Positions 41,239-64,000 of a stretch of 64,000 nucleotides of DNA are shown piece by piece (within the stretch, counting starts at the first letter, position 1; each line of letters begins with the position of its first letter). The translations under genes were made by a program, and so were the position numbers. The stretch covers positions 1 through 64,000 of the forward strand of contig NZ_KB902491.1 in assembly GCF_000379525.1 (NCBI RefSeq). Reading direction: 5' to 3'. This stretch comes from Lamprocystis purpurea DSM 4197. Its GTDB lineage: Bacteria; Pseudomonadota; Gammaproteobacteria; Chromatiales; Chromatiaceae. Below the pieces are notes generated by a model. The model did no database searches. It worked only from the letters and a program-made list of their open reading frames with translations, and was not told the origin of the DNA.

Positions 41239-43647
41239 ATGCCCCTTGTTCACACTCCACTGATGCTTACTTGGGCTTTGGTTCCGGGGCAGGGCGGACT
41301 TGATGGTGATCCGGTGGTCGGCACGGTACCGCCGGAAGTTGCAACCGTGTTGACGCGCTGGCTCCAGCCGGACCCCAATCAGCAGGATAGTACCGAGTAC
41401 CTGGGCTGGGCATGTCTCCCCGCTGGGGACTATTACTGGGTGGGGTGTTGCCAAGGCGCTGGTGGATCACTGGAGAAGGGTGTAACCGTGAACGTTGCGG
41501 GTTGGCCCCTCGACGGCTGCGATGAGACCTTCGATCCTGGTGCCTGCTTGGGCAATCGAGTCGCCGTTACTTCCGGTTCACCCGCGAGGGTCGACTGTGA
41601 AAGGCCGCCGGTCGCCTCGGACGAACCTTTGCGTAACCTGGCGGTGGAGTTGCTCACGCATCTTGTCGATGGCATGGTCCGGGGTTGCCCCGTATTGGTG
41701 GCCACGACAAAGGAGTTGCTCTGCCTGGGCCCCAGCCTCGATTTCTTGGTGACCGCAGCCGCCTTTGCCAGGGCGGGGCTTCCGACCCGGTTGCGGCAGC
41801 GTTGCCGGGTGCGCATCCCGAGTCAAAATCCCGGACGGTTTCTCGGTGCGGAAGGGGCCGACCTTCTGGTGATCCCAACCGATCAGACCGAGCCAGCCCT
41901 GATCGCTTGTCGGGACGCGACGATCCTGGATCGTCGCGGGGTTCGCCAGGTGGGGAGCGAACCTGCCCCGACGGCGCGGGCCTATGCCCTCGCGGTGTGG
42001 GAGGAAGCGACCCGTTTTCCCCAAGGCTTAACCGCCTTCGGCGCGCGCTTCGACCGGCTATGGGACGGCGCCTGGCCGCTGCCCCAGTCACTGGTCGACC
42101 TGATCCCGACCGTCTTCAAGCTCGGTGTAGCACTGCACGGGAGCCCTCAGCAGCGCGCCAATCTCTTTGCCAACCACCTAATCGAGAGAGCCAAGAACGC
42201 CGAACTGCCCTGGCGGCTGCTGATCTCGGACGACGAGTGGCGGACTTTCCCGGAGGACCGTTTGACGGCCTATCTCCTGCGCGAGCCCGGCGGGCTGACC
42301 GCTGGCGAGTTGGCGCTGCAACGCGCGATCGAAGGGACCTTCGGCGTCGGTGGGGTTCGCATCGATTCAGGTGTCCACTCCTGGTGGGACCGCGAGGACG
42401 CGGCTAAACGCTCTCGTCTTTTGACGTTGGCAAGAAGTACACCGACCCTGATTTCACCCACCCTCATGGCCAGCCTGTTCGGCGGCCTGAGCTTGGCCAC
42501 CTTGCTTGGCGACGGCCCCGTCTCGGGGCTCCTCGCGGCGGAGCTCGACGCCGGTACCCTGGGGCGCCGCGCGACAGAGGCGGCGACCTTGACCTTCTTA
42601 GCCGCGGATGCCGCAGTGACCGGGATCCTGTGTCGGGCCGCACGTCGCGGGCTCCTCGATCTCTCCTGGATTGCCCGCGTCATCGAGCACGGGGAACCGG
42701 CGACCATGAGCCAGGTGCTCCTGGGCCTGGCTTCTTACCCGGAAGAATCTGCTTCATGGGGTGAAACCACGGAGCGATTGATCGCCGCGGTGCGGGGCTT
42801 ACCGCAGGTGGATGGGGCCACAGTGCTGACCCTGGCCCGCATCGCTGAAGGAATCGACCCGGCGGTACACCCCGGGGTCTATTTTGGCCTGTTGGACCTG
42901 GTCTGCGCGGCCGAGCCCGCGCCGGGCGCCCTGTCCAGCCCACTCCTGGAGCGACTGTGGCCGCTCCTGGATGTGATTGGTGATCCCGTGGCCAGGCGCC
43001 GGGTCGCGGCGGAACTGCTCGGGGGGCACTGGACCTGCCCCGGCCCCGGTTTACTGATCGACACCAGCGGCACTCTGCGGCCGGCCTGGCTTCACACCCT
43101 ACCCGACCTACTTCTGGCCAGCCCGGAACTGATGGTCACTATGACCTTGAAGGAGTTGATCCGGATGCGGCCCGGCCGGAGGGGTGACCCCGCGCCCTGG
43201 GCAGCGGCCGTGACCAAGCGCTGGAGGGGCGACCCACCCACCGTCACCGATGCGCTAATCGCCGCCGACGCCTGGTACGACTGGCGACGGCACGCTGTCC
43301 TCGACCCGGGGGAGGGTCATCAGTCCGCCATGTCGTGGCTCGTCGCCCCCGCATGGGTCCATCACCGTGCGGCCGGCCCCGAGGGTTTACCGCCCCACTG
43401 GCACCGCGGTCATGGACGCGCTCCAGACCGCCGACCCCCCGAGTGCAACTGGGAAGCTTGGCGCCAGGTCATGATTGACCTGGATACCGGTCTCGCCGCG
43501 GTACACGTCCGATCGATCACGGCACCGCCGACCCATTGGCCTTGGATTTACTCAAGGGAGCAGGAACAGGTCGCTGACCTGGAGGCGCGATGTCTCGACA
43601 CGGAAGGCCGGGACTGGCTGCGGCAGGCTGCCGCCAGGGACACCTGA
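41239..43647 (+). CDS. Large uncharacterised protein, possible GTPase-associated (GAP1-like)
   Basis: 802 residues from ATG 41239 (ATG 41263 is also possible; neither has a good ribosome site). The N-terminal 350 residues alternate strands and helices (TWALVPGQGGLDGDPVVG, DYYWVGCCQGAGGSLEKG, LLVIPTDQTEPALIACRD) and have a stretch (ELLTHLVDGMVRGCPVL to LPTRLRQRCRVRIPSQ) whose pattern recalls the shared domain of the proteins at 45094 and 46545. The C-terminal half is helical with repeats of LxxLARxxxx type. No transmembrane segment or catalytic motif is evident. It resembles the GTPase-associated protein class described in NTP-dependent conflict systems, but this is a pattern judgement. Confidence 0.6.
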   Translation: MPLVHTPLMLTWALVPGQGGLDGDPVVGTVPPEVATVLTRWLQPDPNQQDSTEYLGWACLPAGDYYWVGCCQGAGGSLEKGVTVNVAGWPLDGCDETFDPGACLGNRVAVTSGSPARVDCERPPVASDEPLRNLAVELLTHLVDGMVRGCPVLVATTKELLCLGPSLDFLVTAAAFARAGLPTRLRQRCRVRIPSQNPGRFLGAEGADLLVIPTDQTEPALIACRDATILDRRGVRQVGSEPAPTARAYALAVWEEATRFPQGLTAFGARFDRLWDGAWPLPQSLVDLIPTVFKLGVALHGSPQQRANLFANHLIERAKNAELPWRLLISDDEWRTFPEDRLTAYLLREPGGLTAGELALQRAIEGTFGVGGVRIDSGVHSWWDREDAAKRSRLLTLARSTPTLISPTLMASLFGGLSLATLLGDGPVSGLLAAELDAGTLGRRATEAATLTFLAADAAVTGILCRAARRGLLDLSWIARVIEHGEPATMSQVLLGLASYPEESASWGETTERLIAAVRGLPQVDGATVLTLARIAEGIDPAVHPGVYFGLLDLVCAAEPAPGALSSPLLERLWPLLDVIGDPVARRRVAAELLGGHWTCPGPGLLIDTSGTLRPAWLHTLPDLLLASPELMVTMTLKELIRMRPGRRGDPAPWAAAVTKRWRGDPPTVTDALIAADAWYDWRRHAVLDPGEGHQSAMSWLVAPAWVHHRAAGPEGLPPHWHRGHGRAPDRRPPECNWEAWRQVMIDLDTGLAAVHVRSITAPPTHWPWIYSREQEQVADLEARCLDTEGRDWLRQAAARDT

Positions 43648-43846: not shown

Positions 43847-44953
43847 ATGACCGATCTGACGTACCTTGCCCTCAATGCCAAGGGGGCGGTGACCGCCCTG
43901 CCGCTGACCCCGACGGCAGGTGCCGAGGCGCGGCTGACCCTGACCGCCCTGCCGGGATCCGGGGGGCTGCACCTGGCGGTCCTGGACGGCGGCGCGGTGT
44001 GTCTGCGCTGCGAGATCCCCGCGGCGGACGAGGAAACGGTGGAGATTCGCTTAGGTGCTCTGCCGGGGCCGCGTTTCGCATTGGATACCGGGCCTCGGCT
44101 CGCGGTGGTACTGCCCGCTGAGGCCCGCTATGCCCCCCTCGACCCGATCCCCGCGCCGGTGGCGGGGCAACCCTGGGATATCGCGCTGGTCATCGACGGT
44201 ACCACCCGCATTCCGGATCCGTCGTCCCGGGATGGGCAGCGGCGCCCGTTGCTCGCCGACCCCGACCTCTGGCCCGCCATGGCGGGGCGCATCGCCGACT
44301 TGGTGGAGCGGTTGGCCCAGGGCTCGGGCGGGTCGAGTCGGGTGACGGTGCTGGCCTTCGGCGACGCGCCGCTCCCCGGGGTCTCGGACCCGGGGCTACA
44401 CCGGGGCGCTTATGTGTTGCGGTGGGGCCTCGCCGGCGATGGACATGGATTCACCCCGGTCGGGCGGGTCGATCTGACCCGAGTCTTGACCGATCTGCCG
44501 GACAGCCCGGGTGGCGATTTTACGGATGCCTTAGGGGACGCACTCTACGCGTGCAGCCAACTGCATTGGCGCACCCAGGCCCGGCGGCTGGTGGTTCTGT
44601 TCGGCGATTCGCCGGGCTATGCCCTCGCCGCACCGGTCCCGCGGGGCGGCAATGCCAGGGCCCGCCGCCACGATGTCGACATGGAGGCTAGACGCTTGCA
44701 CCGGGCGGGGGTGGAGATACTGACACTCTACCAAGCGCAGCCCTGGCCCACCGGGGGTGTCGGTGATCCCTTGACGGCGCAGCGGCGCGAGCTGGTCCGC
44801 CATGTCGTCGACCAGTATCTCCGCCTGGCCTCCGAGGCGCGTTTGGCGGCAATGGCGGAAACCTTCGATGTGGAGGCCGTCGCCGCGACCCTGCTCGAGC
44901 GCGATTATCCCTTGGCCCGCGGACCCTCCGTCGGCTGGGCTGGACCGCGGTGA
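43847..44953 (+). CDS. von Willebrand factor A-like domain protein
   Basis: 368 residues from ATG 43847 (GTG 43841 possible). An N-terminal beta domain (about 1-105) is followed by a vWA-type Rossmann domain starting WDIALVIDGTTRIP: Asp117 in D-G-T is the first metal-site motif, with Thr in place of one serine. LVVLFGDSPGYA is the later strand with an acidic residue, and GGDFTDALGDALYACS may supply the third motif. Soluble. It follows the 802-residue gene in the same direction and converges with the minus-strand operon. Confidence 0.75.
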   Translation: MTDLTYLALNAKGAVTALPLTPTAGAEARLTLTALPGSGGLHLAVLDGGAVCLRCEIPAADEETVEIRLGALPGPRFALDTGPRLAVVLPAEARYAPLDPIPAPVAGQPWDIALVIDGTTRIPDPSSRDGQRRPLLADPDLWPAMAGRIADLVERLAQGSGGSSRVTVLAFGDAPLPGVSDPGLHRGAYVLRWGLAGDGHGFTPVGRVDLTRVLTDLPDSPGGDFTDALGDALYACSQLHWRTQARRLVVLFGDSPGYALAAPVPRGGNARARRHDVDMEARRLHRAGVEILTLYQAQPWPTGGVGDPLTAQRRELVRHVVDQYLRLASEARLAAMAETFDVEAVAATLLERDYPLARGPSVGWAGPR

Positions 44954-45015
44954 CCGCTCGGCGGTTGTGCCGGGGGTCGCGACTGGCCGGGATTACCCTG
45001 CGCCCAGCAGCGTCT

Positions 45016-45095
45016 CAGTGATAGCATTCGGACGTGATAACCGGACAAGGGGCGGGTTTCAAACCCGCCCCTACACCAGGGTCTGTCTGGATATC
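45016..45095 (-). repeat. Dispersed palindromic repeat, copy B
   Basis: Reverse complement of this stretch matches 7608-7688: GATATCCAGAC, GTGTAGGGG, the identical GGGGCGGGTTT-G-AAACCCGCCCC palindrome, TTATCACGTCCGAA and ATCACTG, with one indel. It sits between convergent genes and just reaches the stop codon of the gene at 45094-46548, so it could serve as a bidirectional terminator. Confidence 0.8.
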
Positions 45096-46548
45096 AGGTA
45101 CCAAGGCTATCGCTGTCCGGCACTATTGCAGACGCTGCCAGGCAATCTTCGATCATGGCACGCAACGCCGGGGCGGTCTCGTCGAGGTCGCGCCACCGTG
45201 CGAGCCAGGCCCTGATTCGCATCCGGACGACCGCCCTTGGACAGCCGAGGCTCTGGTGCAGGATGCGGCGTAAACCGTCCTCGCCGTGCTTGCCGAGACT
45301 GGCCCCGATCCGTTTCGGGTGGCTGGCGAGTGCCGGGAGCAGCGCTGGGACCCAAGGACTCTGCGGCAGTCCGACGAGACTCAGGGTCTCGGGGTGGGGG
45401 AGGAAACACAGGGCCGCGGCGCGCAGTTGATCGACCTTGAGTCCCCAACCGCGTTCATCGGCCCAGTGTGGGCGATCCCCGGCGACTTGCGCAACCCAGC
45501 GGCATAGAGGATGTTGGCCGGGGCCGCCGGGCATCGCCAGGGGGCCGGTCACCTGACGCAGGATCCTGCGCAACTCCGCCATATCGAGCAGACGGCGGTG
45601 TGGGTCAGCCGTAAATTGGGCGAGGGTCGTCAATAGGGGGCTGACTTGACAACGCTGCGCCTTGAGGTTCGTACCCGTGCCTGGCCGTCGCTCCGCCAGG
45701 AGCGCGGGGTCCTGGGCGAGCAGGGCAGTGACCAAATGTTCGGCCAGTTCCAGGTGCTCCGATGCCACCGTGGCCGGAGGCCAGCCATGCCCCGTTGCGA
45801 TGACTACGAAGTCCCAGTTGCCTGCCAGATCCTCGGGGTCCAGGGCCTCGGCGGGCACCCATCCGGCCAGGGAGAGAGCGGACGCGGCCTGCGGCGGGAG
45901 CGGCAGCAACAGGGCCGCCAGTGCCTGCGGTCCCAAGGGACCGTCGGGTAATGCCAGGCATGCCGGCCGCACCCCGGACAGGATCTGAGCATAGAGGTTG
46001 CGCAGGCACTCCTGGGTGACTCGCTTGCCCAGTTCATCGAGCCCCTCGCCGATCGTCCGGGCCAGCCAGTCAGGACCCAGACCAGTCAGTTCCAGCGGAT
46101 CCAGGGGGAGGGCATAGTCCGGGTCGCCCCAGCGTCCAAGATGTTGGCGGTCCCGCCAGACCCAATGCTCCAGTCCGGTCGCGGCGGGCAACAGGGCCAA
46201 CGCCGCTAGTGGCGGCGGCACCCCGGGGAACGCTCGCCAGGCGAGGACCTGGCGCTCGAGAAACCCGCCGCGCCCGGCGGCATCCTGGGCACGACTCGGA
46301 TAATAGGCGGCGGCCAGGTAGCCCGGACCGAGCGCTCGCCATCCGGGTGTCCGGGCTGGCCGGTCCTCGGCCCCCAGACGCAGTGCCCGCGCGGGATCCC
46401 AGGCCCCCGCTGCAACGCCTGGGCTGCGCGCCAGCCAACGGAACTCGGGCGGACCGCTCTGGATCTTGCCCCAGATCCCGCGCTCGCAGGTCAGGTTCCA
46501 GGGCGGTGGGGCGGCACCCTGCAGCGCGGGCCAAGCGGGGAGGGTCAT
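45094..46548 (-). CDS. Paralogue of the N-terminal domain of the neighbouring GTPase
   Basis: 484 residues. Residues 1-260 line up with the N-terminal part of the 46545-48269 protein: CERGIWG/CERAVWG, YYPSRA/CYPSRA, FLERQVLAWR/LEKQLIEWR, LALLPAATGLEHWVW/LVLLPQAERLDDTIW and GPLGPQALAALLLPL/GPLSGAALAALLLPL. The C-terminal half is different and helical, and it has no P-loop. It is the last gene of the operon and overlaps the GTPase gene by 4 bp (ATGA). It may regulate or pair with the GTPase. Confidence 0.75.
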   Translation of the reverse strand: MTLPAWPALQGAAPPPWNLTCERGIWGKIQSGPPEFRWLARSPGVAAGAWDPARALRLGAEDRPARTPGWRALGPGYLAAAYYPSRAQDAAGRGGFLERQVLAWRAFPGVPPPLAALALLPAATGLEHWVWRDRQHLGRWGDPDYALPLDPLELTGLGPDWLARTIGEGLDELGKRVTQECLRNLYAQILSGVRPACLALPDGPLGPQALAALLLPLPPQAASALSLAGWVPAEALDPEDLAGNWDFVVIATGHGWPPATVASEHLELAEHLVTALLAQDPALLAERRPGTGTNLKAQRCQVSPLLTTLAQFTADPHRRLLDMAELRRILRQVTGPLAMPGGPGQHPLCRWVAQVAGDRPHWADERGWGLKVDQLRAAALCFLPHPETLSLVGLPQSPWVPALLPALASHPKRIGASLGKHGEDGLRRILHQSLGCPRAVVRMRIRAWLARWRDLDETAPALRAMIEDCLAASAIVPDSDSLGT

Positions 46549-48269
46549 GAGGTCTCGGCACCAGGCGTCGCCGCTTCCAGCCGTTTGAGTACCCAGGTCA
46601 AGGGGTCGAGGAGATGGAGTGGATGCGACTGACTGCTCAGGCGGGGATTCAGATCCTCGTCGAAGAACACTGCCGGGGTGACGGCACCGTGCTCCACCCA
46701 GACTCCGGCGGCGGAAACCGGAAACAGCCGGTAGGTCGCGAAATGGTGTTCCAGGCTCTGCAAAATGTCGTGTTCGACGCGCGCCCGCACAAAGGCGTCA
46801 GGGTCTTCCAGGGCACTGCGGTAGTGCGCGGCGGTCGTGATAAAGGCGTCGGCCTTCGCGAGACAGAAGGCGACGGGGCGGGTGTCGCGCCCCCCCTCGC
46901 GCGTTTCAGCCACCGACATACGGTCGAGTGCGTCCTTGAACGCTTCGCGTTGGAGTGCGACCTCGAGCAAGGGATCGAAGAGCAGGATCAGCCCGTCGGC
47001 CGTGGCAAGCTGTTGGTAAACCGCGTCGGTCTGCAACCGGAAGTCCTCCCCCGCACGGTCCTCGACCTCGATCATTGCCTCGGCGCCGGTGCCGCCGTGG
47101 ACCAGTCGGCACCGAACGGGGCTTGCCTTATCCACCGGGGTCGGTGCCGGAAAGCGGTTCTGCGTCTGCAATCGAGCGCGCAGGGCACGGAAGAAGCCCA
47201 GACTATCGGGTCCGGGATAGACCCGCCATTCACTGTCGGTGGCATGTTCCAACTGCAGGTAGAGTTGGGCCAGGTAAGCGGTCTTGCCGGCCGCGGCGAG
47301 GCCCCAGAGGACCAGGCGGCGGGTTTCCGGTGTGGTCGTGGGGGGCGCTTTGGGCGTGGCGGGGGACGGCCGCGTGGTCGGTCGGGTCTGCAGGCGCCGG
47401 GGGTCGCCGGCAAGGACGGCCGCCGCCATGCGTTCGGCCGCCGAGACCTGGGTCTCGTCCGCCGCGGCCGCCCGGACGGACGCGGTGTCGGTCGGTGCGC
47501 CGCCCAGGATCAGGTCCCAGGGGTGCACGGTCTGGCCCGGACGAAGCCGGCGCGACGGCAGCCAGGCGACCAAGCCCAGGCGGTCCGCCCGCTCCCGCGC
47601 CAGTGGCAGCAGCAACGCGGCGAGGGCAGCGCCGGACAAGGGGCCGGTGAGTCCCGGCAGGGCGATGCCCTTGGCGCCGGCCAGCAGCCGGGTATAGAGC
47701 GCCGCCAGGGCGGGCGGGTCCGTCGCCTCGGCAAGCTCCCGACAACCGGCCAGAATGGTCGTCTGCAGGTCGATCTCGTCGAAGGGGATCTCAGTGGTCT
47801 CGTCGGGTGCCAGCGCAAGATGGAAGCCGTCCGCAAAGTCCCCGTCGTCCCCGGACTTGCCCCACCAGATCGTGTCGTCGAGGCGTTCGGCTTGCGGGAG
47901 CAACACCAATGCCCCGAGGGCCGCCGGCAGGTCTTGGGGGCGGCGCCACTCGATCAGCTGTTTCTCCAGTCCCGGGCGGCCGCCTGCCGGGGCGCGGCTG
48001 GGGTAACAGCGGACGGCGTAGTGGAGGCTGCCCGAACTGCGCCACGCGAGCGTCACCCACGGAACGTCCTCGTCGCCGAACGCCAGGCTGCGCTCGATGC
48101 CCTCCGCACTACCCCCAAACCCGGCGCTGGTCGCGAGCCAGTGCGGCCCGGCGCCGGCGCCTGGTTCCCTGCCCCAGACCGCGCGCTCGCAGCGCAGGGG
48201 GGGCAAGGGATGTCCGACCCACCCGGCCAGTGCCGGCCAGTCCTGCCAGGGGTTGGTTCTAGAGGTCAT
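46545..48269 (-). CDS. P-loop GTPase with an N-terminal partner domain
   Basis: 574 residues from ATG 48269, overlapping the coiled-coil gene by 11 bp. Residues 1-250 are the domain shared with the gene at 45094. A Thr/Pro-rich linker leads to a C-terminal GTPase-like domain: Walker A GLAAAGKT (323-330), IEVEDRAGE as a DxxG-type switch II, and FCLAKAD in the place of NKxD, with the Asn changed to Ala; FPVSAAGVW may be the G5 motif. Small GTPases of TRAFAC type with this layout occur in predicted conflict systems. Specificity for GTP is uncertain because of the NKxD change. No membrane helix. Confidence 0.78.
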   Translation of the reverse strand: MTSRTNPWQDWPALAGWVGHPLPPLRCERAVWGREPGAGAGPHWLATSAGFGGSAEGIERSLAFGDEDVPWVTLAWRSSGSLHYAVRCYPSRAPAGGRPGLEKQLIEWRRPQDLPAALGALVLLPQAERLDDTIWWGKSGDDGDFADGFHLALAPDETTEIPFDEIDLQTTILAGCRELAEATDPPALAALYTRLLAGAKGIALPGLTGPLSGAALAALLLPLARERADRLGLVAWLPSRRLRPGQTVHPWDLILGGAPTDTASVRAAAADETQVSAAERMAAAVLAGDPRRLQTRPTTRPSPATPKAPPTTTPETRRLVLWGLAAAGKTAYLAQLYLQLEHATDSEWRVYPGPDSLGFFRALRARLQTQNRFPAPTPVDKASPVRCRLVHGGTGAEAMIEVEDRAGEDFRLQTDAVYQQLATADGLILLFDPLLEVALQREAFKDALDRMSVAETREGGRDTRPVAFCLAKADAFITTAAHYRSALEDPDAFVRARVEHDILQSLEHHFATYRLFPVSAAGVWVEHGAVTPAVFFDEDLNPRLSSQSHPLHLLDPLTWVLKRLEAATPGAETS

Positions 48270-50590: not shown

Positions 50591-53509
50591 TCAATCCAGA
50601 ATGGCGGCGAGTATCCCGAGGGCCTCGCCGCGATAGGGCGGCTGGGCGGACAGCCCGCCATGGGCGCGCCCCAGCGGGGAGCGCAGGCAGGCGGGGCAGC
50701 CTTCGGCGCTGGCGCAGGGGCACGCGCTGAGCCAGGCGCGCGTGTCCGCGAGCAGTTGTTCCACGAGCCCCTGGTCCGCCTCGATGGCCTGCGCGAGTCC
50801 GATGCCCCCGGGGTAGAGGTCGACGAAGAGCAACCCCCAGGCCGGCCGGCCGGCCAACAGTCGTCCCTCGCAGGCGACGATGGCGATATCGTCCTCGGCG
50901 ATGCCCACATGCACGGGAAGACTGTGGCGCAGGGCTTGAGCCAGTGAGTTGAGTCCGCTCGGGAAGTCGCGCAGGCGTTCCGCCTCGATTTCCAGGAAAA
51001 GACCCTGGGTGTGCATGGACAGGCTGGAAATGGGGTTATAGGTCCCACCTTGACCCGCGGTCCAGGTACCGCTCACGGGGTCGCGGGCGTACTCGAGATA
51101 ACCGGAGATGTCCTCCTGATAGTCCAGTGTGACCAGCGAGCGTGCCAGGGGCAGGTGGCCGAAGGCGATGCGCTGGCGGCCCGGGACGGCAGCAATTCGG
51201 CCGAGGCGCGGGGCGAAAACCCGCCAAGTCGACACGGCGGCCTGTTCCCGCCGGCACAGGATGCCCGTACCCAGGCCTGCCCCGTCGCCGCCTTGGGCGT
51301 CGAGTACGGCGGCGACCGAGCCCCAGGGCTGGACGCGGTAGCGCCGGCCGGCGTGGACGAAGACCCGCTGCGGATAGGCGCGAATGGTGATGCGCTCCGG
51401 GTCCAGGCTCAGGAGTCGGGGCTCGCCCTCCCCGGCCGCGGGATCGATGACCGCGACCAGGTCTGTCCCCACGGTATCCAGGGGACGGGGGAAGTCGCGC
51501 GTGATGCGGCCGCTGAACTCGAGCTCCGCCACCAGGCGGCCGTCCTTGAGGTGGCGCACATCGCGGCGGTCGATCAGGCCCTTGGAGGCGAGTTGGCGCA
51601 ATACGCGCTGGATCTCCGAACCCTCGTGATGGAAGCTGGCCATGAGACCGCTGGTGACCTCAGGCAGCTCGTTCAGAGCCAGGAGCAGATGGCGTTGAAC
51701 GACGCCCGGCTGGGGGCCGGTGGCCACCAGGGTCCGGCTGCGCCGGAACAGCGCGGCGGGGTCTTCCATCAGACGCCGCAGGGCGTAGCCCACATAAGGG
51801 TTGCCGAAGGCGAGACAGAGGCCGGCGTGGCGCGACCGCAGTCCGGGGACGGCGCGCCCCCCGGCGGCCAGGATCAGGGCCAGTGACAGGACCTCCGCCG
51901 CCCCGACTTCGCGGATTTCGGCCCCGGCCGTGGCATTGTCCGCCTCCAGGCACGCCCGCAGGGGGCGTCCGGCCACGGTCTGTTGGAGGAAGGCCCCGGC
52001 CTCATCATGGTCCAGATGCTCAGGGATCACGGCGTAGGTCGGCCAACCGGCGGTCACCGAGGCGCGCGCGGCCCCTAACACGGCCTCGGTCACGGGGGGC
52101 CGGGTTTCGGCCCCGGCCGAGGCGGCGGCGGTCGGCTCGAGCAGGTGCAGCGACAGCGGTAGGGCGAGGCGCGGTGGGATCACGACCTGGGTCTCGGGCG
52201 GGAAACGCTGCGGGAGGGATTCGCCTAAGAACGGGATGAACCGGGCGTCGGGCGTGTGGGCCGCACGTACGAATGCCAGGTGACGCAGGTCGCGGCGCCC
52301 GTGGCGCGAGGTAAGCCGATGCAGGCGCTGCGAGATCGCCCAGAAGTTGGCCGCCGGCACCCCCGAATAGCTGTGCAGGTCCCAGAAGACGATCAGGCCC
52401 ACCCGGTGGAGCAGGGCGCGGTCCTGCTCCAGCTTCGGGATAAGTCGGCTCGACAGAGCCTCGGCATCCGTCACCCAGACGAAGGCGCGTGGATGCGGGG
52501 CCGCGCCCGGGCAGGGTGCGTCCACCGCGGCGGCGTCGGCCAGCCAGCCGGTGAGGGTAGTCGCAAAGGCGGTCGCCGCCGCGGGGACCAAGACCAGGGT
52601 GGTGGCCTGAGCGCGGCGGCGCACGATCTGTGCCGCCAGGGCCAAGGATTCGATCTGTCCGCAATCCTCAGGGGCCAGGATGAGCCGGTTGCAGGCCCCC
52701 GCGGTGCCGTCGGCTGTATTCAGGAACTCCTCGATGGCCGCAAACAGTTCCGGGGTCGGCTGGTGGCGGGACAGTTCCGGCCAGTGCCCGGCGAGCCCGC
52801 CCGGCGGCGGGGCGGTCTGGATCTGCGCGGTCGCCGGGTAGGACGCCAGGGTCGTGACCGTGAAACCTTGCCGGCGCATCGCGTCCGGCCAGTCGGGCAG
52901 TGGCGGCGGCGGGGCGGGTTGGGGCTTGGGAGTGCGCACCCGGGCGGGCGGGTCCTTGCTGAGCGCGACCCCGACCAGGGTCGCCAAGGTCAGGGCCAGT
53001 GCCGACCACAGTGCCGCCGGGTAAGGGGCGGATGCGGGTCCCAAGGATGCGGCCCCCGCCAACAGGGGCACCAGCAGGGCGAGGACCGGGATGACCAGGA
53101 CCCAGGTCCGGGTGTCGCGTCGGCCGATGGCCCCGGCCAACCAGCGCGCGCGCTGGGGCTCGGTGCCACGGGGGAAGTGTGCGACGGTGAGCGCCAGGAG
53201 CCAGGGCACCAGCGGCAGGCACAGCGCTATCCAGTAGGCCCCTTCCGGTCCGAAAGCCAGTCCTCCGGAGGCGTCGGGCATGGCGTGCCGACCCGTGCGC
53301 CACAGGTCATCGCGGAGCCACTTGAGCCACCAGGCATGGAGCAGCCCCAAGGTGAAAAGCGGGATCGTCCAGGCGGTGACCCGGGTCCAGTACAGCCCGC
53401 GATCGAGTCGCGCCAGGGCGGCCAGGCGGTCGGCGATGACGGCGATGGTGGCCGCGGCGGCAAGCAGCAGCAGCGCCGGGAGCCAGGTGGGCAGCGTGAA
53501 GCCGGACAT
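50591..53509 (-). CDS. Membrane-anchored degenerate helicase-like protein with DUF1998/MrfA zinc module
   Basis: 972 residues from ATG 53509 (TTG 53515 overlaps the upstream stop). The first 190 residues hold about five membrane helices (WLPALLLLAAAATIAVIA, WIALCLPLVPWLLALTV, WVLVIPVLALLVPLLAGAA, ALWSALALTLATLVGVAL). A Pro-rich linker follows, then two helicase-like lobes in which the Walker A position reads LAPEDCGQIES and the Walker B position VGLIVFWDLHS instead of DEAH, so ATPase activity is unlikely. The C-terminus has WGLLFVDLYPGGIGLAQAI and a CPCASAEGCPACL cysteine cluster, the zinc module of MrfA/DUF1998 helicases. It overlaps neither neighbour but sits 28 bp from the coiled-coil gene. 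Confidence 0.75.
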   Translation of the reverse strand: MSGFTLPTWLPALLLLAAAATIAVIADRLAALARLDRGLYWTRVTAWTIPLFTLGLLHAWWLKWLRDDLWRTGRHAMPDASGGLAFGPEGAYWIALCLPLVPWLLALTVAHFPRGTEPQRARWLAGAIGRRDTRTWVLVIPVLALLVPLLAGAASLGPASAPYPAALWSALALTLATLVGVALSKDPPARVRTPKPQPAPPPPLPDWPDAMRRQGFTVTTLASYPATAQIQTAPPPGGLAGHWPELSRHQPTPELFAAIEEFLNTADGTAGACNRLILAPEDCGQIESLALAAQIVRRRAQATTLVLVPAAATAFATTLTGWLADAAAVDAPCPGAAPHPRAFVWVTDAEALSSRLIPKLEQDRALLHRVGLIVFWDLHSYSGVPAANFWAISQRLHRLTSRHGRRDLRHLAFVRAAHTPDARFIPFLGESLPQRFPPETQVVIPPRLALPLSLHLLEPTAAASAGAETRPPVTEAVLGAARASVTAGWPTYAVIPEHLDHDEAGAFLQQTVAGRPLRACLEADNATAGAEIREVGAAEVLSLALILAAGGRAVPGLRSRHAGLCLAFGNPYVGYALRRLMEDPAALFRRSRTLVATGPQPGVVQRHLLLALNELPEVTSGLMASFHHEGSEIQRVLRQLASKGLIDRRDVRHLKDGRLVAELEFSGRITRDFPRPLDTVGTDLVAVIDPAAGEGEPRLLSLDPERITIRAYPQRVFVHAGRRYRVQPWGSVAAVLDAQGGDGAGLGTGILCRREQAAVSTWRVFAPRLGRIAAVPGRQRIAFGHLPLARSLVTLDYQEDISGYLEYARDPVSGTWTAGQGGTYNPISSLSMHTQGLFLEIEAERLRDFPSGLNSLAQALRHSLPVHVGIAEDDIAIVACEGRLLAGRPAWGLLFVDLYPGGIGLAQAIEADQGLVEQLLADTRAWLSACPCASAEGCPACLRSPLGRAHGGLSAQPPYRGEALGILAAILD

Positions 53510-53511
53510 GG

Positions 53512-56001
53512 TCAATCGCCCAGGCCGGTCGTCGGGACCCCGGTGACGACCTCGAAGAGATAGACTCGGGTATCGTCCTTGCCTTCATAGATGTTACTCA
53601 CCCCGTCGACCTTGGTACCCTGTTTCCAGGACGACGGCATGACGCAGCAACGGCGGCTCACCGGGGTATCCGCGGCGGGGGCGAAGGCGAATGCCAACGA
53701 AAAATCGGGACGCTTGAGCAGGTCCGTGATGGCCGTCTGCCGCAGTTGCTGTTCGGTGCTGTCGGACGCTGCAAGGGCGGCCTTGAAGGGGCGGACATAG
53801 CCTTGGCTGAGCAGCGCAACGAACTTCAACGGGTCCAGGAAGGCGTCGCAATAATGCCCCGCCCAACCGCGACAGGGCCCAGGGTCTTGATGCAGCTCCT
53901 TGGCCGCGTCGCGGGCGGCACGTTCGTCCCATCCTTGAAAGGGCTCCGGGAGATCCGCCTGGTAGGCGCGCCAGCGCTCCTCGGTCAGTGGATTCGTCTG
54001 CAACATCCGCTCGAGGTCACCCGGTGCCTCGACCCACTGGCGGACGCTGAGTTGCGGTCGACGCGGTTTGCCTTGGACACCCAGGGGGTCCGGGTGTTGC
54101 CCGTGCAGGCGCAGGAACCCGCCGAGCTGCTCGCGCAGCCAACCCAGTTCTCGACGCCGTTGCGCCAGGCGCTCGCCAAGTTGACCGAGGAACTGGAGTG
54201 CCTCGCCCGCCAGGGTGGCGGTGAGGTCGGCGCGGGCCTGCTCCAGGTAGATGGTCAGGGGATCGTCCTGGGCGCGGATCACGGCGGCGAAGCGCCCAGC
54301 CGCGGGGTCCAGATAGAGGTCACGGGCACGGGCGATGCGCCGGTGTACGCCGCGACCGAGCAGCAAGTTCAGAAGCGTCGCCGCGAGTGCGCCTAAGACC
54401 AGCGCCAAGGGGGCCGGCTCGGCGAGCCATTGGGAGGCTTGATGAAGCCAATGGCGTGTTTGGGCCAAGGGGTCGGGTTCCGGCAGGCTCAGCAGGAAGG
54501 CCTGGGCAAAGGGCGCGAGACCCAGGCCCAGAAGCGCGCCGAACAGCAGCCAGAAGGGCGTCAGGGCGCGGCCCTGGCGACCGATCCATTCCCGCGATTG
54601 GCTGAGAAAACGCCGGTGCAGGTCGTCAAGCCCAACGGGACCGTCGCTGCCGCGGGGACGATGGGCCGCGACTTGGGCCTTTATCAAATCCGTGACGGCG
54701 GCCTTAATCTCCTCCTGGACGCTGGCCAGCGGGACCGGCTCGCGCTCGTCATGCAAGTCATCGATGATCGCCTGGCGCACCTTGTCCCCTTGCTGGAGGT
54801 GGCGCTTGCGCAGGTCGAGGACCACCTGATCAATGGTCCGGGCCAGGTCCAATTCCAACTCCCGACACCCCTGCCGGAAACGCAGGCCGGCGCGCTCGGC
54901 CCAGTCCGGGGTCTCCTGGTTGGACAGCGTCAGGATCGCGTTCACCAGACGGTCGACGCCGATCCGCCAGCACTTGACCAAGGGGTCTTCGACCCCGGGG
55001 GTTGGGGTGCTGACCTGACGCAACGGGGCCAGTGCCGCGCGCACGCGCGTCGCCCGCGGCCGGGGGGACTTGTCCCCGGCGAGATAGGGCAGCCACTCCT
55101 GACCGAAGCGGGCGGCGGCGATCTGCCCGAGGAGTGCCGGGCTGCGCTCCAAGAGGCGGATGCCAAAGGCAGCGAGGGGCGGTTGGCCGTGGCTCGGCTG
55201 GCGGTAGAGCCAATCGAAGTCCGCCCGCTTCCCTTCGAAGAGCAGGAACTCCAGAAACAGCGTCGCCTCGTCCAGGCGGGCGTCGCGGTCGCGCTGCGCG
55301 CCCGCGGTCTTGCTGTCCATGAGATAAATGCGCCCCGGTCCCGGCCGGTCGCGGCCAGCGCTCTCCCAGGTCCGCGCCGAGTTGATCAGCGCGCGGCGTA
55401 GGCGTCGGGCGTCCTCGTTCCTGGCCCAGAAGTCGTCGAAGTCGAGTACCGCGATACAGTTGACGACCTGTGCCTCGCTGCCGACCCGGCGCAGGGTCGG
55501 GTCATCCCAGAGTGGACGCAATGCGGCGCGCAACAGGTTATCGATCTGCCCCAGGGCCGCCGCGGTCCCCGGGCGCGCCAGCACGATGAGATCGAGTCCG
55601 TGCACGGCACCCTCCTGACCGGGCCGTTCCCGGCGCGCCTGGGGTGAGAGCAGCGCCCGCTTGGCTTCGTCCACGGCCGCCCCGAGGGCCTGCTCTGGGG
55701 TGGCCGACTCGCCTTCGGGAGCGACCTTGAGGATCTGCCGATAAAGGTCGCGGAAAAACTCCGTGTCGGTGCCGACGGCGGCCGGGTCGGGGAGGTGCTG
55801 ATCGGGGACGCCCGCCAACCCTGGGCGATCCGGTAGCCACAGCAGGGCGAGGTCGCGCAACTGGCGTTCACCGGCCCCGGGACCACCCTGGGGGCGGCGC
55901 GTCCAGGACAGCACGCCGCGCGGGGCGGCGCTCGTGAGCAGGCGTTGCAGGACGTCGCGCCCGAAGTCGCTGTGCCCCACCAGGATCGTCGCCCTGGACA
56001 T
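53512..56001 (-). CDS. Two-TM protein with a tubulin-like, probably degenerate N-terminus
   Basis: 829 residues. The start ATILVGHSDFGRDVLQRLLTSAA parallels the nucleotide-binding start of the tubulin-like protein encoded upstream (FVGLGGVGSQIVDRIAARAAG), but the glycine loop is lost and no GGTGSG motif is found. Two membrane helices lie near residues 480-505 (FWLLFGALLGLGLAPFAQAF) and 525-550 (LALVLGALAATLLNLLL), flanked by helical, probably cytoplasmic regions. The C-terminal 150 residues include RCCVMPSSWKQG. Starts 5 bp after the tubulin-like gene. Confidence 0.65.
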   Translation of the reverse strand: MSRATILVGHSDFGRDVLQRLLTSAAPRGVLSWTRRPQGGPGAGERQLRDLALLWLPDRPGLAGVPDQHLPDPAAVGTDTEFFRDLYRQILKVAPEGESATPEQALGAAVDEAKRALLSPQARRERPGQEGAVHGLDLIVLARPGTAAALGQIDNLLRAALRPLWDDPTLRRVGSEAQVVNCIAVLDFDDFWARNEDARRLRRALINSARTWESAGRDRPGPGRIYLMDSKTAGAQRDRDARLDEATLFLEFLLFEGKRADFDWLYRQPSHGQPPLAAFGIRLLERSPALLGQIAAARFGQEWLPYLAGDKSPRPRATRVRAALAPLRQVSTPTPGVEDPLVKCWRIGVDRLVNAILTLSNQETPDWAERAGLRFRQGCRELELDLARTIDQVVLDLRKRHLQQGDKVRQAIIDDLHDEREPVPLASVQEEIKAAVTDLIKAQVAAHRPRGSDGPVGLDDLHRRFLSQSREWIGRQGRALTPFWLLFGALLGLGLAPFAQAFLLSLPEPDPLAQTRHWLHQASQWLAEPAPLALVLGALAATLLNLLLGRGVHRRIARARDLYLDPAAGRFAAVIRAQDDPLTIYLEQARADLTATLAGEALQFLGQLGERLAQRRRELGWLREQLGGFLRLHGQHPDPLGVQGKPRRPQLSVRQWVEAPGDLERMLQTNPLTEERWRAYQADLPEPFQGWDERAARDAAKELHQDPGPCRGWAGHYCDAFLDPLKFVALLSQGYVRPFKAALAASDSTEQQLRQTAITDLLKRPDFSLAFAFAPAADTPVSRRCCVMPSSWKQGTKVDGVSNIYEGKDDTRVYLFEVVTGVPTTGLGD

Positions 56002-56006
56002 GCCGG

Positions 56007-59557: not shown

Positions 59558-61552
59558 TCAAAAACGCTTGGCCGCGAAGGCTGCAAGTCGCACTTGCCGA
59601 AGCAGCACATAGTCGCGCATCAAGGCCAGCTGCGTTACGCCGTTGAGGTCGTTGGACACCTGTCGCGCCGCTGCTGTGGTATTTAGATGAGCGCCGTACG
59701 CGTGCGGCTTGGCCAAGACCGGCGTAACGCGCAACGCTCGATTCAAGGCCGCGGGGATGAGCAGTTTGTTGCCCGGCCGATCAACGAAACCGCTTATATA
59801 ATCTGCCTTACTCACGAACACGCGACCGGGTATTGCCAATGCGCGAATCGCCCGGAATTCCTGCCCAAAAAAATGTTCGATCTCCATCTCGGGCAGTCGA
59901 TGCGCAGGCAATCCTTGGGGTAAACAGCATTCGTATTCGCGTAGCAGGTATCGCAGTGATGCAGACTGGTTGTCCCAATACTGCGAACGTGCAATCGACC
60001 CGACAAACTTGTCGCGGCTATCATAAGTCGAGAGGTAGTCCCGCCATGCATCAAGGAAGCTCTGCCCGGCAATCGGTGGGGTGACGCAGACCTGTTGCCA
60101 TGCCGCGGTAAAGCCGCCCGGCTTCGAGCCGCCGACGATCAGGCGGAGCAACTCGGCGACATAGAGCGGAGTGACATCCCGAACACTCTGATCGGGAATG
60201 GTCTCGATTTCATCTCGAATGACCTGCTTCCACGGCATGTCACTGGGAACATTCGCCGACGCCTCGTTGTACAGGGCGATGAGGTCCTGCTTTATCGCTT
60301 GATTGGAAAGACGGATCTGGCCGAGAACCGCATGCCAGTCAGTGCCGCACAGATCAGGCACGGCGAGCAGTATTGCGAGCTGTTTGGCCTGCAAACCCAA
60401 GGAATCCAGGACCATCACATAGTCGTCAAGCGCGTCACGCTGCGGTGAAGCCGGGATAATGCCATTGACGAAGCTCGGCACGCCAAGCAGGTTGCCTGCA
60501 CGAGCCAGTGTCAAACGATTTGCCAGCGCACTGTGCCGTGTTGCCAGGCTGCTGCTCTTTGCAACCACATCGCCAACAAGCCCCGCCGGGTTGTTACCCT
60601 GACCTGAAAGAAGAGCGCGGAAACTTTGGTAAATGCTTTCCAGACTGCCGTCGTGTGCCCGCGGATAGAGTTGATCTGGTGCGGCTCCGTAATTCTGTCC
60701 GGCGATTGGCTCCCACAGGCAAATCGCCAGTTGTCGCAGAAAGTCATCTTCGTTAAGGAGGCTTGCATCCAGATCGATTGAGAGGTAGACACGACCGAAA
60801 CTTGTATTCAATGGTTGTGCCTGATTGAAGCCTCCGTTTTCGTCGGCTTCCATCGCCAGGCTTTTGATCTTCTCCAGTTTTGTCAGGTCTTTTCCACGAT
60901 CATTCAGGGTCAAAAACGGACCCAATGTTGCACCGCGAGGAAGCTGCACCCACACCAGCTCGGTGTGCGCACCGATTAGAAATCTGTGTTCAGGGCTGCC
61001 TGCTATAAATGGCGGTTGGGGCGGCATAGCGAACAGCTCTTGAAGTCGCCGTTGACTGCGCGTGTTCATCGGGGGCACGGGATTGCCCATGCCGAGTAGC
61101 GAGCGCCAGAGTTCGTGATCTGTCGCAGGACTGAGTATGACTTTGGGAATCGTCCGTTCATTTGGCATCGTGACGTATCGCATCTTGCTCCCAGCGCAGC
61201 GCTCGAGCAGCCCAAAGAGGGTCACGAGACGCTGTTGGCCGTCTACGACGAGATGGACGCGAAAGATTGAGTCAGTCGCCTGAAAGCCATTGTTAGAAAG
61301 AGTGTTGATGTCTTCGTTGGCTGGATCGCTGTAGTTAGTCAGCAGTGCACTGTCGGGTTGTACTTCGATTGTATGAATCGCCCCAAAATAATGGATCGTA
61401 TTTGGGTTATGACGCTGCCGGGCGGTGGCAACCTGTATATCCCGAATCATATCCTCCCGGTGTGATTGCTCCCAGGCATAGGGGCGCTGGAAGGTTGGGA
61501 TGACGAAGATGTTGGCCTCGGTAAACAATTCCGAGGCGGCTTTGAACGTCAT
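59558..61552 (-). CDS. DUF262/GmrSD-like protein
   Basis: 664 residues. The N-terminal DUF262 domain has IPTFQRPYAW (18-27) and VVDGQQRLVTLFGLL (Asp104 of the DGQQR motif), the ParB-like NTPase/nuclease signature of GmrS. The C-terminal region has LPEMEIEHFFGQEF and PGNKLLIPAALNRAL, which fits the DUF1524 His-Asn nuclease domain with a His in EHFF. It looks like a single-chain GmrSD-type modified-DNA restriction or abortive-infection protein. By eye it is clearly less GC-rich than everything around it, which suggests separate acquisition. Lies in the same orientation as the tubulin-like operon. Confidence 0.83.
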   Translation of the reverse strand: MTFKAASELFTEANIFVIPTFQRPYAWEQSHREDMIRDIQVATARQRHNPNTIHYFGAIHTIEVQPDSALLTNYSDPANEDINTLSNNGFQATDSIFRVHLVVDGQQRLVTLFGLLERCAGSKMRYVTMPNERTIPKVILSPATDHELWRSLLGMGNPVPPMNTRSQRRLQELFAMPPQPPFIAGSPEHRFLIGAHTELVWVQLPRGATLGPFLTLNDRGKDLTKLEKIKSLAMEADENGGFNQAQPLNTSFGRVYLSIDLDASLLNEDDFLRQLAICLWEPIAGQNYGAAPDQLYPRAHDGSLESIYQSFRALLSGQGNNPAGLVGDVVAKSSSLATRHSALANRLTLARAGNLLGVPSFVNGIIPASPQRDALDDYVMVLDSLGLQAKQLAILLAVPDLCGTDWHAVLGQIRLSNQAIKQDLIALYNEASANVPSDMPWKQVIRDEIETIPDQSVRDVTPLYVAELLRLIVGGSKPGGFTAAWQQVCVTPPIAGQSFLDAWRDYLSTYDSRDKFVGSIARSQYWDNQSASLRYLLREYECCLPQGLPAHRLPEMEIEHFFGQEFRAIRALAIPGRVFVSKADYISGFVDRPGNKLLIPAALNRALRVTPVLAKPHAYGAHLNTTAAARQVSNDLNGVTQLALMRDYVLLRQVRLAAFAAKRF

Positions 61553-61715: not shown

Positions 61716-61940
61716 TCAGGCGCCCACCACCAGTGGATAATCGAAGGCGTCGCGCGGCGCCTCAAGTTGGACAGAGCCGTCGCGCGCAGCCTGGGCCTCC
61801 ATGAGCCGGCGGGAAACGTCGCGGGCGATCTCCAGGGTCTCGGCAAGGGTGTGCGCGACCAATCCGGGGATAGCATCCGAGGTGGCCAGGTACAGCCCCT
61901 GGGGCAGGCGCTCGATGTGCAGGTTAACGATGCGCTCCAT
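61716..61940 (-). CDS. HicB-like antitoxin-domain protein
   Basis: 74 residues from ATG 61940 with GGGGAG 9 nt upstream. NLHIERLPQGLYLATSDAIPGLVAHTLAETLEIARDV (positions 6-42) is the HicB/DUF1902 fold: short strands, then the P-G-L turn and helix. It lacks the DNA-binding C-terminus of long HicB proteins. No convincing HicA gene follows; the next 163 bp hold only a very weak remnant, so it may be an orphan. Confidence 0.75.
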   Translation of the reverse strand: MERIVNLHIERLPQGLYLATSDAIPGLVAHTLAETLEIARDVSRRLMEAQAARDGSVQLEAPRDAFDYPLVVGA

Positions 61941-61990
61941 GGTCGATGACTCCCCGTCCTGGTCGTCGATGGTCCAATCCTACACCCTGA

Positions 61991-64000
61991 CTAACCGGTC
62001 CGCAGCTCGAAGAACAGGGTCCCGGCGTCCGTGCGGTAGGTGATGCCGAGCTGGGCTTGGCACCCGTGCGGGCTCAGCGCGACCCAGCGCCCGTCGTCGC
62101 CGCGGACCTGCAGCAGGGCGCCACCCATGGCCGTCAGGTGCACCCCGGCGCGGCCGGCGCGTAGACTGGCCACGGCGTGGCCGGGGCGGGCGCCGAGGCG
62201 GTAGTCGGCCCGGACGTAGAGGCGGGCATCACGGTAGAAGCCGCTTCCGGCCCCCCGCTGGGCGCGGATCAGGTAGGGGAAGCCTTCCTCCAGGTCGGCC
62301 TCCGGCGAGATCTGGACACTTAGGTTGCGTGGGAAGCGGAAAGGGGAAACGTACCCGTGGATGATGACACCCAGCACCGCGAGCCCCGCGACCCCGGCCA
62401 GGACCGGCCACCAACAGACGAGCCAAGGGGCCGCGGTCACCCCCAGCGTCAGCGGGACGGCCGCGGCGATGGCCTGTCCGTCCGGGCGTACCGCGGTGAC
62501 GCGGATATCAAACCCGGTGCCCGGCGCGACGGCGGCCGGACAGCGTCCGATGCGCAGGCGCAGGGGCAAGGCGCGGGCCTCGTCCTGGCGCAGGGTCAGT
62601 GTCTGGGGCCGCGCGCCCAGGGGCTGCCACCCTTGGCCGAGGTCCAGTTCCAGGGCGGTACCGGGGCCGTCGTAATCGGCGGAGACCGCGATCGCGTATT
62701 CACCGGCGATACGAACGAAGGACAGATCGAGCGTCCCCTCGAGGCGGACCCCGCTGGATCCTTCCCCGAGGTCGAGGGGGATAGGGTCGCCCAGGGCGAT
62801 TTCGCCTAAGACCCGCACCTTCGCCTCGACCGGCGCCGTCGGGCTCGACCCCGGGGCGGTGAAGCGCAGCGTTGCCTCGCCCAGGGTCCGCGGCCGCCAG
62901 GTGCCGGAATAGTGCCGGGGCTGGCCGCGCGCGGGCACGGGCGGCACGGCCCGCAGGGTCAGGGTCTGCCCGTCGTTGTCGGTGACCCGCACCGCGTCGG
63001 GCTCGGCGAGCAGCCGGGCCTCACCCACCGGTTCCAGTTCGACCGCGACCGGCAGCGGGACGCCCACCGTGGCCCGGTCGGCTACCTGGGCGTGCAGGAC
63101 CCAGCGCGCCGGGGCGACCTCCAGGTTGAAGGCCCGCGTGCGCTCCAGGTGGTCGGTGGTCAGGTGCAGCCGCAGGTTCATCCGGCCGGCGGTCGCAAAG
63201 GTCAGACCGGCACTCAAGACCCCGTCGCCCGCGATATCCCCGTCCTGGCCGTCGTCGCGCAGGTGCAGGCGGCGGCCGTCGGCCTCCAGGGTCACGGCGA
63301 GCCCGGGGACCTGGCGTGGATCCACCACCCGGTCGCCGTCGGCGGTATCCACCAGTTCGACCGCTAAGCGGGTCTCGGCCCCGGCCGCGACGGTGGCCGG
63401 CGGGGTGAAGCGCAGCCCCAGCGAGAAGTCCTGCAGCAGCAGCCAGCCGGCGCCGGCGGGCAGGTCGGGCGCCCGAAACCGCCAGGTGCCCGGCCGGGGC
63501 CGGTCGAGCCGGACGATGCGATAGGCGCGGGTGCGTCGGTCGGTCCCCGTCGTGGTGCCGCCGCCGCGGTAGTCGAGATCCAGGGCGGCGGCAGCGGGGT
63601 TGCCGGGGAGGGAGACGAGCGGCGCCATGGAACCGTCCGCCGCGACCAACAGATAGGCGGTGCGCACGAAGGGGGCAACGGCGACCCGGATCTCCGGTCC
63701 GGAGAGGACCCCGCCGGCGGGTTGGCGCGCACCCAGAAAGCGCTGGTAGATCTCGCCGACGGCGGAGACCAGGCCCGCCGCGCGGGCGGCATTGCGGGTC
63801 AGGTCAAGGTCCGGGTGCCCGGAGAAGCCGCCGCCGTGGCTGCCGAGGTTGACCACGGCCAGGGTCGCCCCGTCGTCGCGCAGCCGCTTGAGTTCCGCGG
63901 CGGTCTCGGGTCCGCAGGAGAAGTCGGTGGCATCGGTGATCAGGATCATCAGGCGCTGCATCGCGGGCGTGGCGGCAAAGCCCGCGGCCAGGGTGCGCAG
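61991..64000 (-). CDS. vWA-domain membrane protein, start beyond the window
   Basis: 669 residues are visible and the frame is open at the window edge. The right end shows the last part of a vWA domain (RLMILITDATDFSCG, TLAVVNLGSHGGG), then several beta-sandwich modules (TRAYRIVRLDRPRPGTWRFRAPDLP, HLRDDGQDGDIAGDGVLSAGL), one transmembrane helix (WLVCWWPVLAGVAGLAVLGVIIHG) and a C-terminal cytoplasmic-type beta domain. This is an extracytoplasmic vWA protein tethered to the membrane. It precedes the HicB-like gene by 50 bp in the same direction and is probably a member of the cluster. Confidence 0.75.
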   Translation of the reverse strand: MRTLAAGFAATPAMQRLMILITDATDFSCGPETAAELKRLRDDGATLAVVNLGSHGGGFSGHPDLDLTRNAARAAGLVSAVGEIYQRFLGARQPAGGVLSGPEIRVAVAPFVRTAYLLVAADGSMAPLVSLPGNPAAAALDLDYRGGGTTTGTDRRTRAYRIVRLDRPRPGTWRFRAPDLPAGAGWLLLQDFSLGLRFTPPATVAAGAETRLAVELVDTADGDRVVDPRQVPGLAVTLEADGRRLHLRDDGQDGDIAGDGVLSAGLTFATAGRMNLRLHLTTDHLERTRAFNLEVAPARWVLHAQVADRATVGVPLPVAVELEPVGEARLLAEPDAVRVTDNDGQTLTLRAVPPVPARGQPRHYSGTWRPRTLGEATLRFTAPGSSPTAPVEAKVRVLGEIALGDPIPLDLGEGSSGVRLEGTLDLSFVRIAGEYAIAVSADYDGPGTALELDLGQGWQPLGARPQTLTLRQDEARALPLRLRIGRCPAAVAPGTGFDIRVTAVRPDGQAIAAAVPLTLGVTAAPWLVCWWPVLAGVAGLAVLGVIIHGYVSPFRFPRNLSVQISPEADLEEGFPYLIRAQRGAGSGFYRDARLYVRADYRLGARPGHAVASLRAGRAGVHLTAMGGALLQVRGDDGRWVALSPHGCQAQLGITYRTDAGTLFFELRTG

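Follow-up and report, generated by a model that had tools for sequence, protein, structure and literature searches.

Operons in which an FtsZl1 (Tubulin_2) protein is accompanied by von Willebrand factor A (vWA) proteins and a GTPase were described by Makarova and Koonin (2010, PMC2875224). Tubulins also occur in the DO-GTPase/GAP1-N2 systems of Kaur et al. (2020, PMC7159879), where theme 1 consists of a DO-GTPase, a tubulin, and two vWA proteins; that theme is reported from Firmicutes and Actinobacteria only. The defence systems DISARM, Dpd, Druantia, and ARMADA have YprA helicases at their core (PMC12458937). Here we describe a locus from Lamprocystis purpurea DSM 4197 (Gammaproteobacteria, Chromatiaceae). 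A six-gene block on the minus strand encodes a Tubulin_2 GTPase (F01), a predicted pseudo-tubulin (F04), an apparently dead YprA-type helicase (F06), a coiled-coil-like protein (F10), a DO-GTPase (F03a), and a partner-domain paralogue of the latter (F03b). Genes for vWA proteins (F02) lie upstream, and two further genes (F08 and F09) converge with the block. The window, i.e. the whole stretch of DNA analysed, comprises bases 1–64000 of the 86.4-kb contig C128 in a 6.9-Mb genome, and the locus runs beyond it to about 83.8 kb of the contig. As far as its sequence goes, this locus is a divergent, rare, and horizontally scattered variant of FtsZl1/vWA/DO-GTPase systems, without detectable GAP1-N2. 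A preliminary description had put the system forward as a candidate undescribed one; the full combination of components does seem to be new, but the general class was already published (Makarova and Koonin 2010; Kaur et al. 2020).

The likeness to FtsZl1 systems extends to a Tubulin_2 protein whose nucleotide loops are intact, vWA proteins bearing signal peptides and transmembrane (TM) helices, a predicted P-loop GTPase, and, at one locus, OmpA nearby. The vWA genes are linked to the operon as in those systems, with F02 genes upstream both in the window and in other loci. Unlike FtsZl1 systems, the locus adds the pseudo-tubulin, the dead YprA-family helicase, the coiled-coil-like protein, and paired active and inactive GTPase-partner proteins, all arranged in a fixed order. 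The main text of Makarova and Koonin (2010) makes no mention of helicases.

With theme 1 of Kaur et al. (2020), the locus shares a DO-GTPase, a C-terminally extended tubulin, the two vWA genes or more, TM components, and a multi-copy, mobile character. The same source has DO-GTPases fused to a partner domain, as here, and the GTPase-then-F08 gene order of some loci resembles its DO-GTPase-then-GAP1 order. It also notes that enzyme copies without activity often serve as effectors in systems of this kind, perhaps as decoys, and the active/inactive pairing at this locus matches this remark (F01 with F04, F03a with F03b, and the dead helicase). One reading of these similarities is that we are dealing with a bona fide GAP1-N2 system, merely diverged, and so with a range extension only. 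This is a matter of membership and is compatible with either of the functional readings weighed below. It is favoured by the DO-GTPase2 match above cut-off, the long C-terminal region of the tubulin, the vWA and TM components, and the position of F08, which in some loci follows a GTPase gene just as GAP1 does. We nonetheless consider it unlikely. The GAP1-N2 profile (PF20013) had no match in the L. purpurea genome and thirty-seven relatives and only marginal ones in two of 398 genomes of the phylum, and neither GAP1 (including in the F03 and F08 members scanned) nor FNIII was among the Pfam matches of the components scanned. Three GTPase families occur here as against one or two paralogues in theme 1, and the pseudo-tubulin and dead YprA helicase are extra components that the available part of Kaur et al. 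does not mention. Because no GAP1 domain was detected, we do not claim GAP1 membership for F08. The system was not found at a tubulin locus on a Paraburkholderia plasmid. Leaving GAP1 membership aside, what is new here is the predicted pseudo-tubulin F04, the putatively dead F06, the DO-GTPase with its predicted Ras/Arf fold, and two extra GTPase families.

Like the YprA family of defence systems, F06 has an MrfA-like motif II region and an MZB/DUF1998 C-terminus. Unlike them, it has lost its motifs and carries several N-terminal TM helices, and no methylase or nuclease partner was identified. The main text of a survey of nearly 52,000 YprA homologues mentions no tubulin, vWA, or transmembrane YprA (PMC12458937). 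Run against the six operon proteins, PADLOC 2.0.0 yielded nothing beyond a weak match to DruE, located in the MZB region of F06. No experimental study of such a system was found in the full-text literature, within whose reach subscription journals mostly do not fall.

Proteins of the six-gene block

The preliminary description had read the six genes as one operon, within a system that combines a tubulin-like GTPase with another GTPase, a dead membrane helicase, and vWA proteins. All six open reading frames (ORFs) were confirmed (Table 1), with starts at 48269, 50562, 53509, and 59291 set by a codon-usage gene caller instead of the longest-ORF starts. In coordinate order, neighbouring genes first overlap by 4 nt (ATGA), then by 11 nt, and are thereafter separated by gaps of 28, 2, and 5 nt. 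The operon is genuine, its gene order recurs elsewhere, and its proposed make-up is likewise supported and conserved across phyla. The Tubulin_2, DO-GTPase2, MZB, and GmrSD_N matches in Table 1 pass the curated Pfam cut-offs; the remaining window proteins of the block and F08/F09 have no significant Pfam match.

F01, described from the outset as tubulin-like, is assigned to Tubulin_2 by sequence family. It shares 53–62 per cent identity with eight relatives, among which GxGGxGS and LAGGTGSGSFLS are invariant. Because the T1 (GxGGxGS) and T4 (LAGGTGSG) loops are intact and invariant across all nine F01 sequences, the protein is expected to bind nucleotide. The tubulin assignment, which comes from Pfam and the loops, holds at the family level, and the F01 tubulin profile had no match among solved structures. 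Lack of a tubulin fold had been named in advance as a refuting outcome; judged by family and loops, it did not come about.

The neighbouring F04 had been noted as a two-TM protein. The TM hairpin is there, but the protein is itself tubulin-like by predicted fold. In the AlphaFold2 model, the local confidence score (pLDDT) is mostly 60–90 over the first 250 residues and below 50 in a loop near residues 61–79; the whole-chain score (pTM) is 0.40. Residues 2–290 of the model match tubulin, gamma-tubulin, CetZ, and BtubA (Z 11.3–12.8 over about 210 residues), and tubulins fill all fifty listed entries of this structure comparison. The Foldseek result was weak, with beta-tubulin (7tub) at E=0.05 and helical toxins ranked first because the C-terminus of F04 is helical. 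Alignment of F04 with tubulin profiles using hhalign was not significant (at best, with trimmed profiles, a probability of 2.9, and only around the T1 loop), and the pseudo-tubulin claim therefore rests on structure prediction. The T1 region is still recognisable (LLIGxGxxG), and the T4 loop GGGTG(S/T)G is absent from ten of ten F04 sequences. We predict that F04 is a membrane-anchored pseudo-tubulin with a lost T4 loop.

The F06 profile matches the MrfA/YprA helicase structure 6znp (E=2.4e-9) in an alignment that covers motif II and the MZB end. Walker A has changed from GK[ST] to CGQxE in all eight aligned relatives. Motif II, DELH in active enzymes of this kind, reads WDLH or, in other sequences, WRLD, WRLH, or WQLQ, and is lost in all eight. 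To judge from these motifs, F06 is a catalytically dead YprA/MrfA relative whose gene has nonetheless been kept. By hydropathy, the N-terminus contains four or five TM segments in most relatives. Zinc binding is apparently dispensable for whatever F06 does, because the MZB zinc cysteines are replaced in three loci (L051, L055, and L064, from methanotrophs or related hosts) where the protein is otherwise conserved.

F03a also matches DO-GTPase1 in Pfam (E=5e-8). PF19993 is matched by ten of the fifteen aligned F03 family members, and the Walker B glutamate is present within a VEDR consensus. In the AlphaFold2 model (pLDDT 78.9), residues 312–570 have a Ras/Arf/Rag/MglA fold (Z 13.5–14.5); structure matches reach only this GTPase part and leave out the partner domain. 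The F03 profile had no significant match to solved structures by sequence, and the Ras/Arf fold of this DO-GTPase is predicted from the model. The GTPase and partner domains are separable, since L055 and L059 encode the GTPase alone while F03b retains the partner domain. Two more GTPase families accompany F03a, one linked to F08/F09 and one encoded at 77.7 kb of the contig. A further DO-GTPase2 gene above the Pfam cut-off lies elsewhere in the L. purpurea genome (G000:C1:128357-128971, L050). For F10, identity as a microtubule-binding GAS protein was considered and rejected (E=0.1).

Table 1. Features of the locus on contig C128, in coordinate order.
Feature	Position	Strand	Evidence or remark
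F08, 802-aa GTPase-partner-like protein	41239..43647	+	Convergent with six-gene block; no significant Pfam match in 9 members
F09, 368-aa, vWA-like	43847..44953	+	By motif inspection only (VIDGTxR...GGDFxDAL...GDSPG); partner of F08
F03b, partner-domain paralogue lacking GTPase domain	45094..46548	-	Aligns with N-terminal domain of F03a; no P-loop
F03a, partner domain (about 1-290) and DO-GTPase (about 312-570)	46545..48269	-	PF19993 (DO-GTPase2) E=2e-11; P-loop GLAAAGKT, Walker B VEDRAG
F10, 767-aa, coiled-coil-like, no TM segment	48259..50562	-	Conserved in block of other loci; no significant Pfam match
F06, N-terminal membrane domain, putatively dead YprA/MrfA-type helicase, MZB (DUF1998) C-terminus	50591..53509	-	MZB (PF09369) E=5e-11
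F04, predicted degenerate tubulin-superfamily domain (about 2-300), 2-TM hairpin (485-544), C-terminal helical region	53512..56001	-	AlphaFold2 model
F01, Tubulin_2/FtsZl1 GTPase with C-terminal region of about 640 aa	56007..59291	-	PF13809 E=2e-40
DUF262/GmrSD_N protein	59558..61552	-	PF03235 E=2.5e-19; between vWA and tubulin genes
F02, periplasmic vWA sensor-like protein	61991..64000, continuing to contig position 64390	-	1-4 copies upstream of tubulin in other loci
ADP-ribosylglycohydrolase fused to glyoxalase domain, and UvrD-like helicase	64789-68703 (L005:3789-7703)		Inserted between vWA genes
F02 paralogues, two	69260-71656 and 71656-73803		vWA proteins
1131-aa protein	74336-77731		No significant Pfam match
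P-loop protein	77737-78882		GPVSSGKT
827-aa protein and 745-aa TM protein	78997-83786		Strand opposite to P-loop protein

Gene order, distribution, and neighbouring genes

A tubulin-profile scan of 84,980 genomes returned fourteen loci, which is a lower bound on carriers because the two-pattern scan detects close relatives only. The loci come from Chromatiaceae (including Thiodictyon and Lamprocystis), Ca. Thiosymbion, two Methylococcaceae, Ca. Methylumidiphilus, an unassigned proteobacterium, and two Acidobacteriota. In so far as contig ends permit, the order vWA(1–4)–F01–F04–F06–F10–F03a–F03b is preserved in L051, L052, L055, L059, L060, L061, and L064. Co-occurrence in other genomes had been proposed as a test of the system, and recurrence of the same order in seven or more further loci, which extend to another phylum, rules out a chance cluster of unrelated ORFs. 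It is scarcely credible, too, that the six genes are no more than unrelated defence genes gathered loosely in one island: the window contig does have DUF262, ADP-ribosylglycohydrolase, and UvrD genes interspersed, but the block itself shows a strict order, overlapping starts and stops, and conservation across phyla. Another Chromatiaceae genome (L060/L079/L080) has a closely similar fourteen-gene layout, running from the TM protein through the 827-aa family, the P-loop protein, the 1131-aa family, the vWA genes, and the six-gene block to convergent F09 and F08, with best pairwise identities of about 27–64 per cent. A conserved set of about fourteen genes appears to encode a membrane-spanning machine.

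The distribution is uneven. F04 was found in one of 369 genomes of the class and in two of 247 genomes of the phylum of genome G144, and several Thiodictyon genomes carry the tubulin apart from part or all of the block. The same is true of a second, broken-up copy in L. purpurea on contig C69 (L006:3953-9467, L027:2058-5372), where some 10.6 kb, occupied by other genes, separates F06 and F04 from the tubulin. L. purpurea also has a third tubulin, of the classical type, on contig C168 (L043:14084-17083; Tubulin_2 E=6e-72), about 7 kb from a GTPase–F08–TM–F09 module (L044:3661-9948). In the tubulin tree, the window copy is separate from the copy shared through the genus. The second copy of genome G007 (G007b) groups with Acidobacteriota and methanotroph copies (support 92/100), though its branch is long and its placement unsure. 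A patchy, rare, multi-copy distribution and this tree fit horizontal movement. No relatives were found on viral contigs, leaving phage carriage unsupported.

F08, as first described, does converge with the block, but its neighbour F09 is vWA-like by motif only: neither F09 nor any relative matches Pfam VWA. F09, 28–41 per cent conserved, adjoins F08 in eight loci, and the two genes stand convergent beside the block in several genomes. On contig C168 and in methanotrophs, the gene immediately upstream of F08 encodes a GTPase with the P-loop GGKGVGKS, and a multi-TM gene comes before that; after F08 in such GTPase-linked loci come F09 and, in some, a 1-TM protein. The F08 family occurs in exactly eight of 142 relatives, those with an F01-clade tubulin, and in eight of eight more distant tubulin carriers; seven of the first eight genomes belong to one genus and do not represent eight independent events. 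Comparisons by hhalign of F03 with F08, and of both with the protein encoded at 74.3 kb, gave no match. Just left of F08/F09 in the window are two nifE/nifN-like genes, read from sequence (37994-40862), and nifE-like and associated genes also lie near F08/F09 in two methanotroph loci (L076:4837-7542, L081:1-2213).

Three genes had been placed upstream of the tubulin. The vWA membrane protein F02 proved to be cut by the window end. It has a signal peptide, a vWA ectodomain, one TM helix (about residues 640–680), and a cytosolic tail; family matches to VWA (E=9e-5, in one paralogue) and VWA_2 (E=1.6e-5) fall just short of the Pfam cut-offs. The TM and signal layout puts the vWA domains outside and the tubulin, GTPase, and helicase inside. 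The DUF262 assignment was borne out by GmrSD_N; this protein has weak PADLOC similarity to the N-termini of SspE, Orf5, and HEC-06, and its gene was not found at that position in the other loci compared. The HicB-like gene is weakly supported (DUF1902, E=0.026, below cut-off).

Neighbours at other loci vary. In the Acidobacteriota locus L077, a caspase-domain protein lies between F03b and F09 (8455-10455) and a CHAT protease just beyond the module (15352-18270). One G007 copy (G007a) has a TIR and metallophosphoesterase protein about 1 kb from the block (L030:2654-5353). Beside G007b are two PBP_like_2-OmpA proteins and a MoxR-type AAA_5 gene (L033:6390-7838, L033:14507-18886); the OmpA proteins echo the association reported for FtsZl1. 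MoxR-type ATPases adjoin both the L075 and L033 loci.

Possible functions of the locus

Our leading reading, held tentatively and with slightly less than even confidence, is that the locus encodes an envelope-spanning, GTPase-gated tubulin machine, most likely an anti-phage conflict system on a divergent FtsZl1/vWA/DO-GTPase branch. The vWA ectodomains, each on a single TM helix by sequence-derived topology, would sense an event at the envelope, for instance phage adsorption or damage. The signal would pass to the cytosolic GTPase modules (F03a with F03b, F08/F09, and the GTPase at 77.7 kb), acting as a threshold switch; the F03a GTPase fold is predicted, and the switch role is suggested by Kaur et al. 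(2020). This switch might license GTP-dependent assembly of F01 at the inner membrane, templated by F04, which on its predicted fold would offer a tubulin interface (to an F01 assigned by family), probably without GTP turnover. F06, with its several TM helices and lost motifs, may work non-enzymatically, tethering nucleic acid or helicase partners or acting as a decoy for them, and would concentrate the polymer at the entry site. Injected DNA could then be contained locally, or the cell shut down.

This anti-phage reading draws on the conserved six-gene order with overlapping junctions in Pseudomonadota and Acidobacteriota, the co-occurrence of F08 with the tubulin, and the tubulin family, pseudo-tubulin, and Ras-like folds. 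It draws, too, on the TM and signal layout, with the vWA domains outside and the other components named above inside. Both helicase NTPase motifs are gone from every relative, yet the gene persists. The distribution is patchy, rare, and multi-copy, and the window copy of the tubulin differs from the one at the core of the genus. Caspase, CHAT, TIR, DUF262, ADP-ribosylglycohydrolase, and MoxR-type neighbours are present in some loci, and these, together with the YprA link, favour a conflict role. Several points weigh on the other side. The operon matches no PADLOC system, and no fused nuclease or toxin was identified. The defence-type neighbours differ between loci and are raw occurrences. Nucleic-acid binding by F06 is doubtful, because the MZB cysteines are lost in three loci. 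Finally, several host groups have internal membranes, which would suit a membrane-remodelling role equally well.

Such a role is a strong rival and quite possible, if more probably wrong than right. Here, following Makarova and Koonin, the locus would be a housekeeping or niche-specific membrane-remodelling or envelope-stress machine with no part in immunity, in which the inner membrane is shaped by the vWA/TM proteins together with the tubulin, and the dead helicase has a scaffolding function. Almost every component is linked to the membrane, OmpA/PBP proteins lie near one locus, and most of the genus has inherited one tubulin copy, even where the remainder of the block is missing. Purple sulfur bacteria and methanotrophs, both known for intracytoplasmic membranes, are among the hosts. 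However, the block is absent from most sampled Chromatiaceae, and F04 from 368 of the 369 class genomes. We know of no intracytoplasmic membranes in the Acidobacteriota hosts, which counts against remodelling, and the conserved DNA-helicase derivative is left unexplained. A more specific form of the anti-phage proposal, to which we give only a small chance, is that this is a new immunity class, in which a periplasmic vWA sensor triggers a GTPase-licensed tubulin lattice growing from a pseudo-tubulin nucleator, and the dead, membrane-tethered YprA helicase is a decoy that binds nucleic acid or helicases and places the lattice at the site of phage entry.

Tubulin_2/FtsZl1 proteins date back to 2010 in the literature; no tested function is reported in the papers found. 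The present locus offers an ordered and compact form of such a system, shared across phyla, with a probable nucleator (F04), switch (the DO-GTPase and its inactive paralogue), scaffold (F06), and sensors (the vWA proteins), and it is this that makes concrete experiments possible. It extends tubulin/DO-GTPase systems to the Gammaproteobacteria and Acidobacteriota, and in it a helicase family central to phage defence appears to have been recruited as a non-enzymatic membrane protein.

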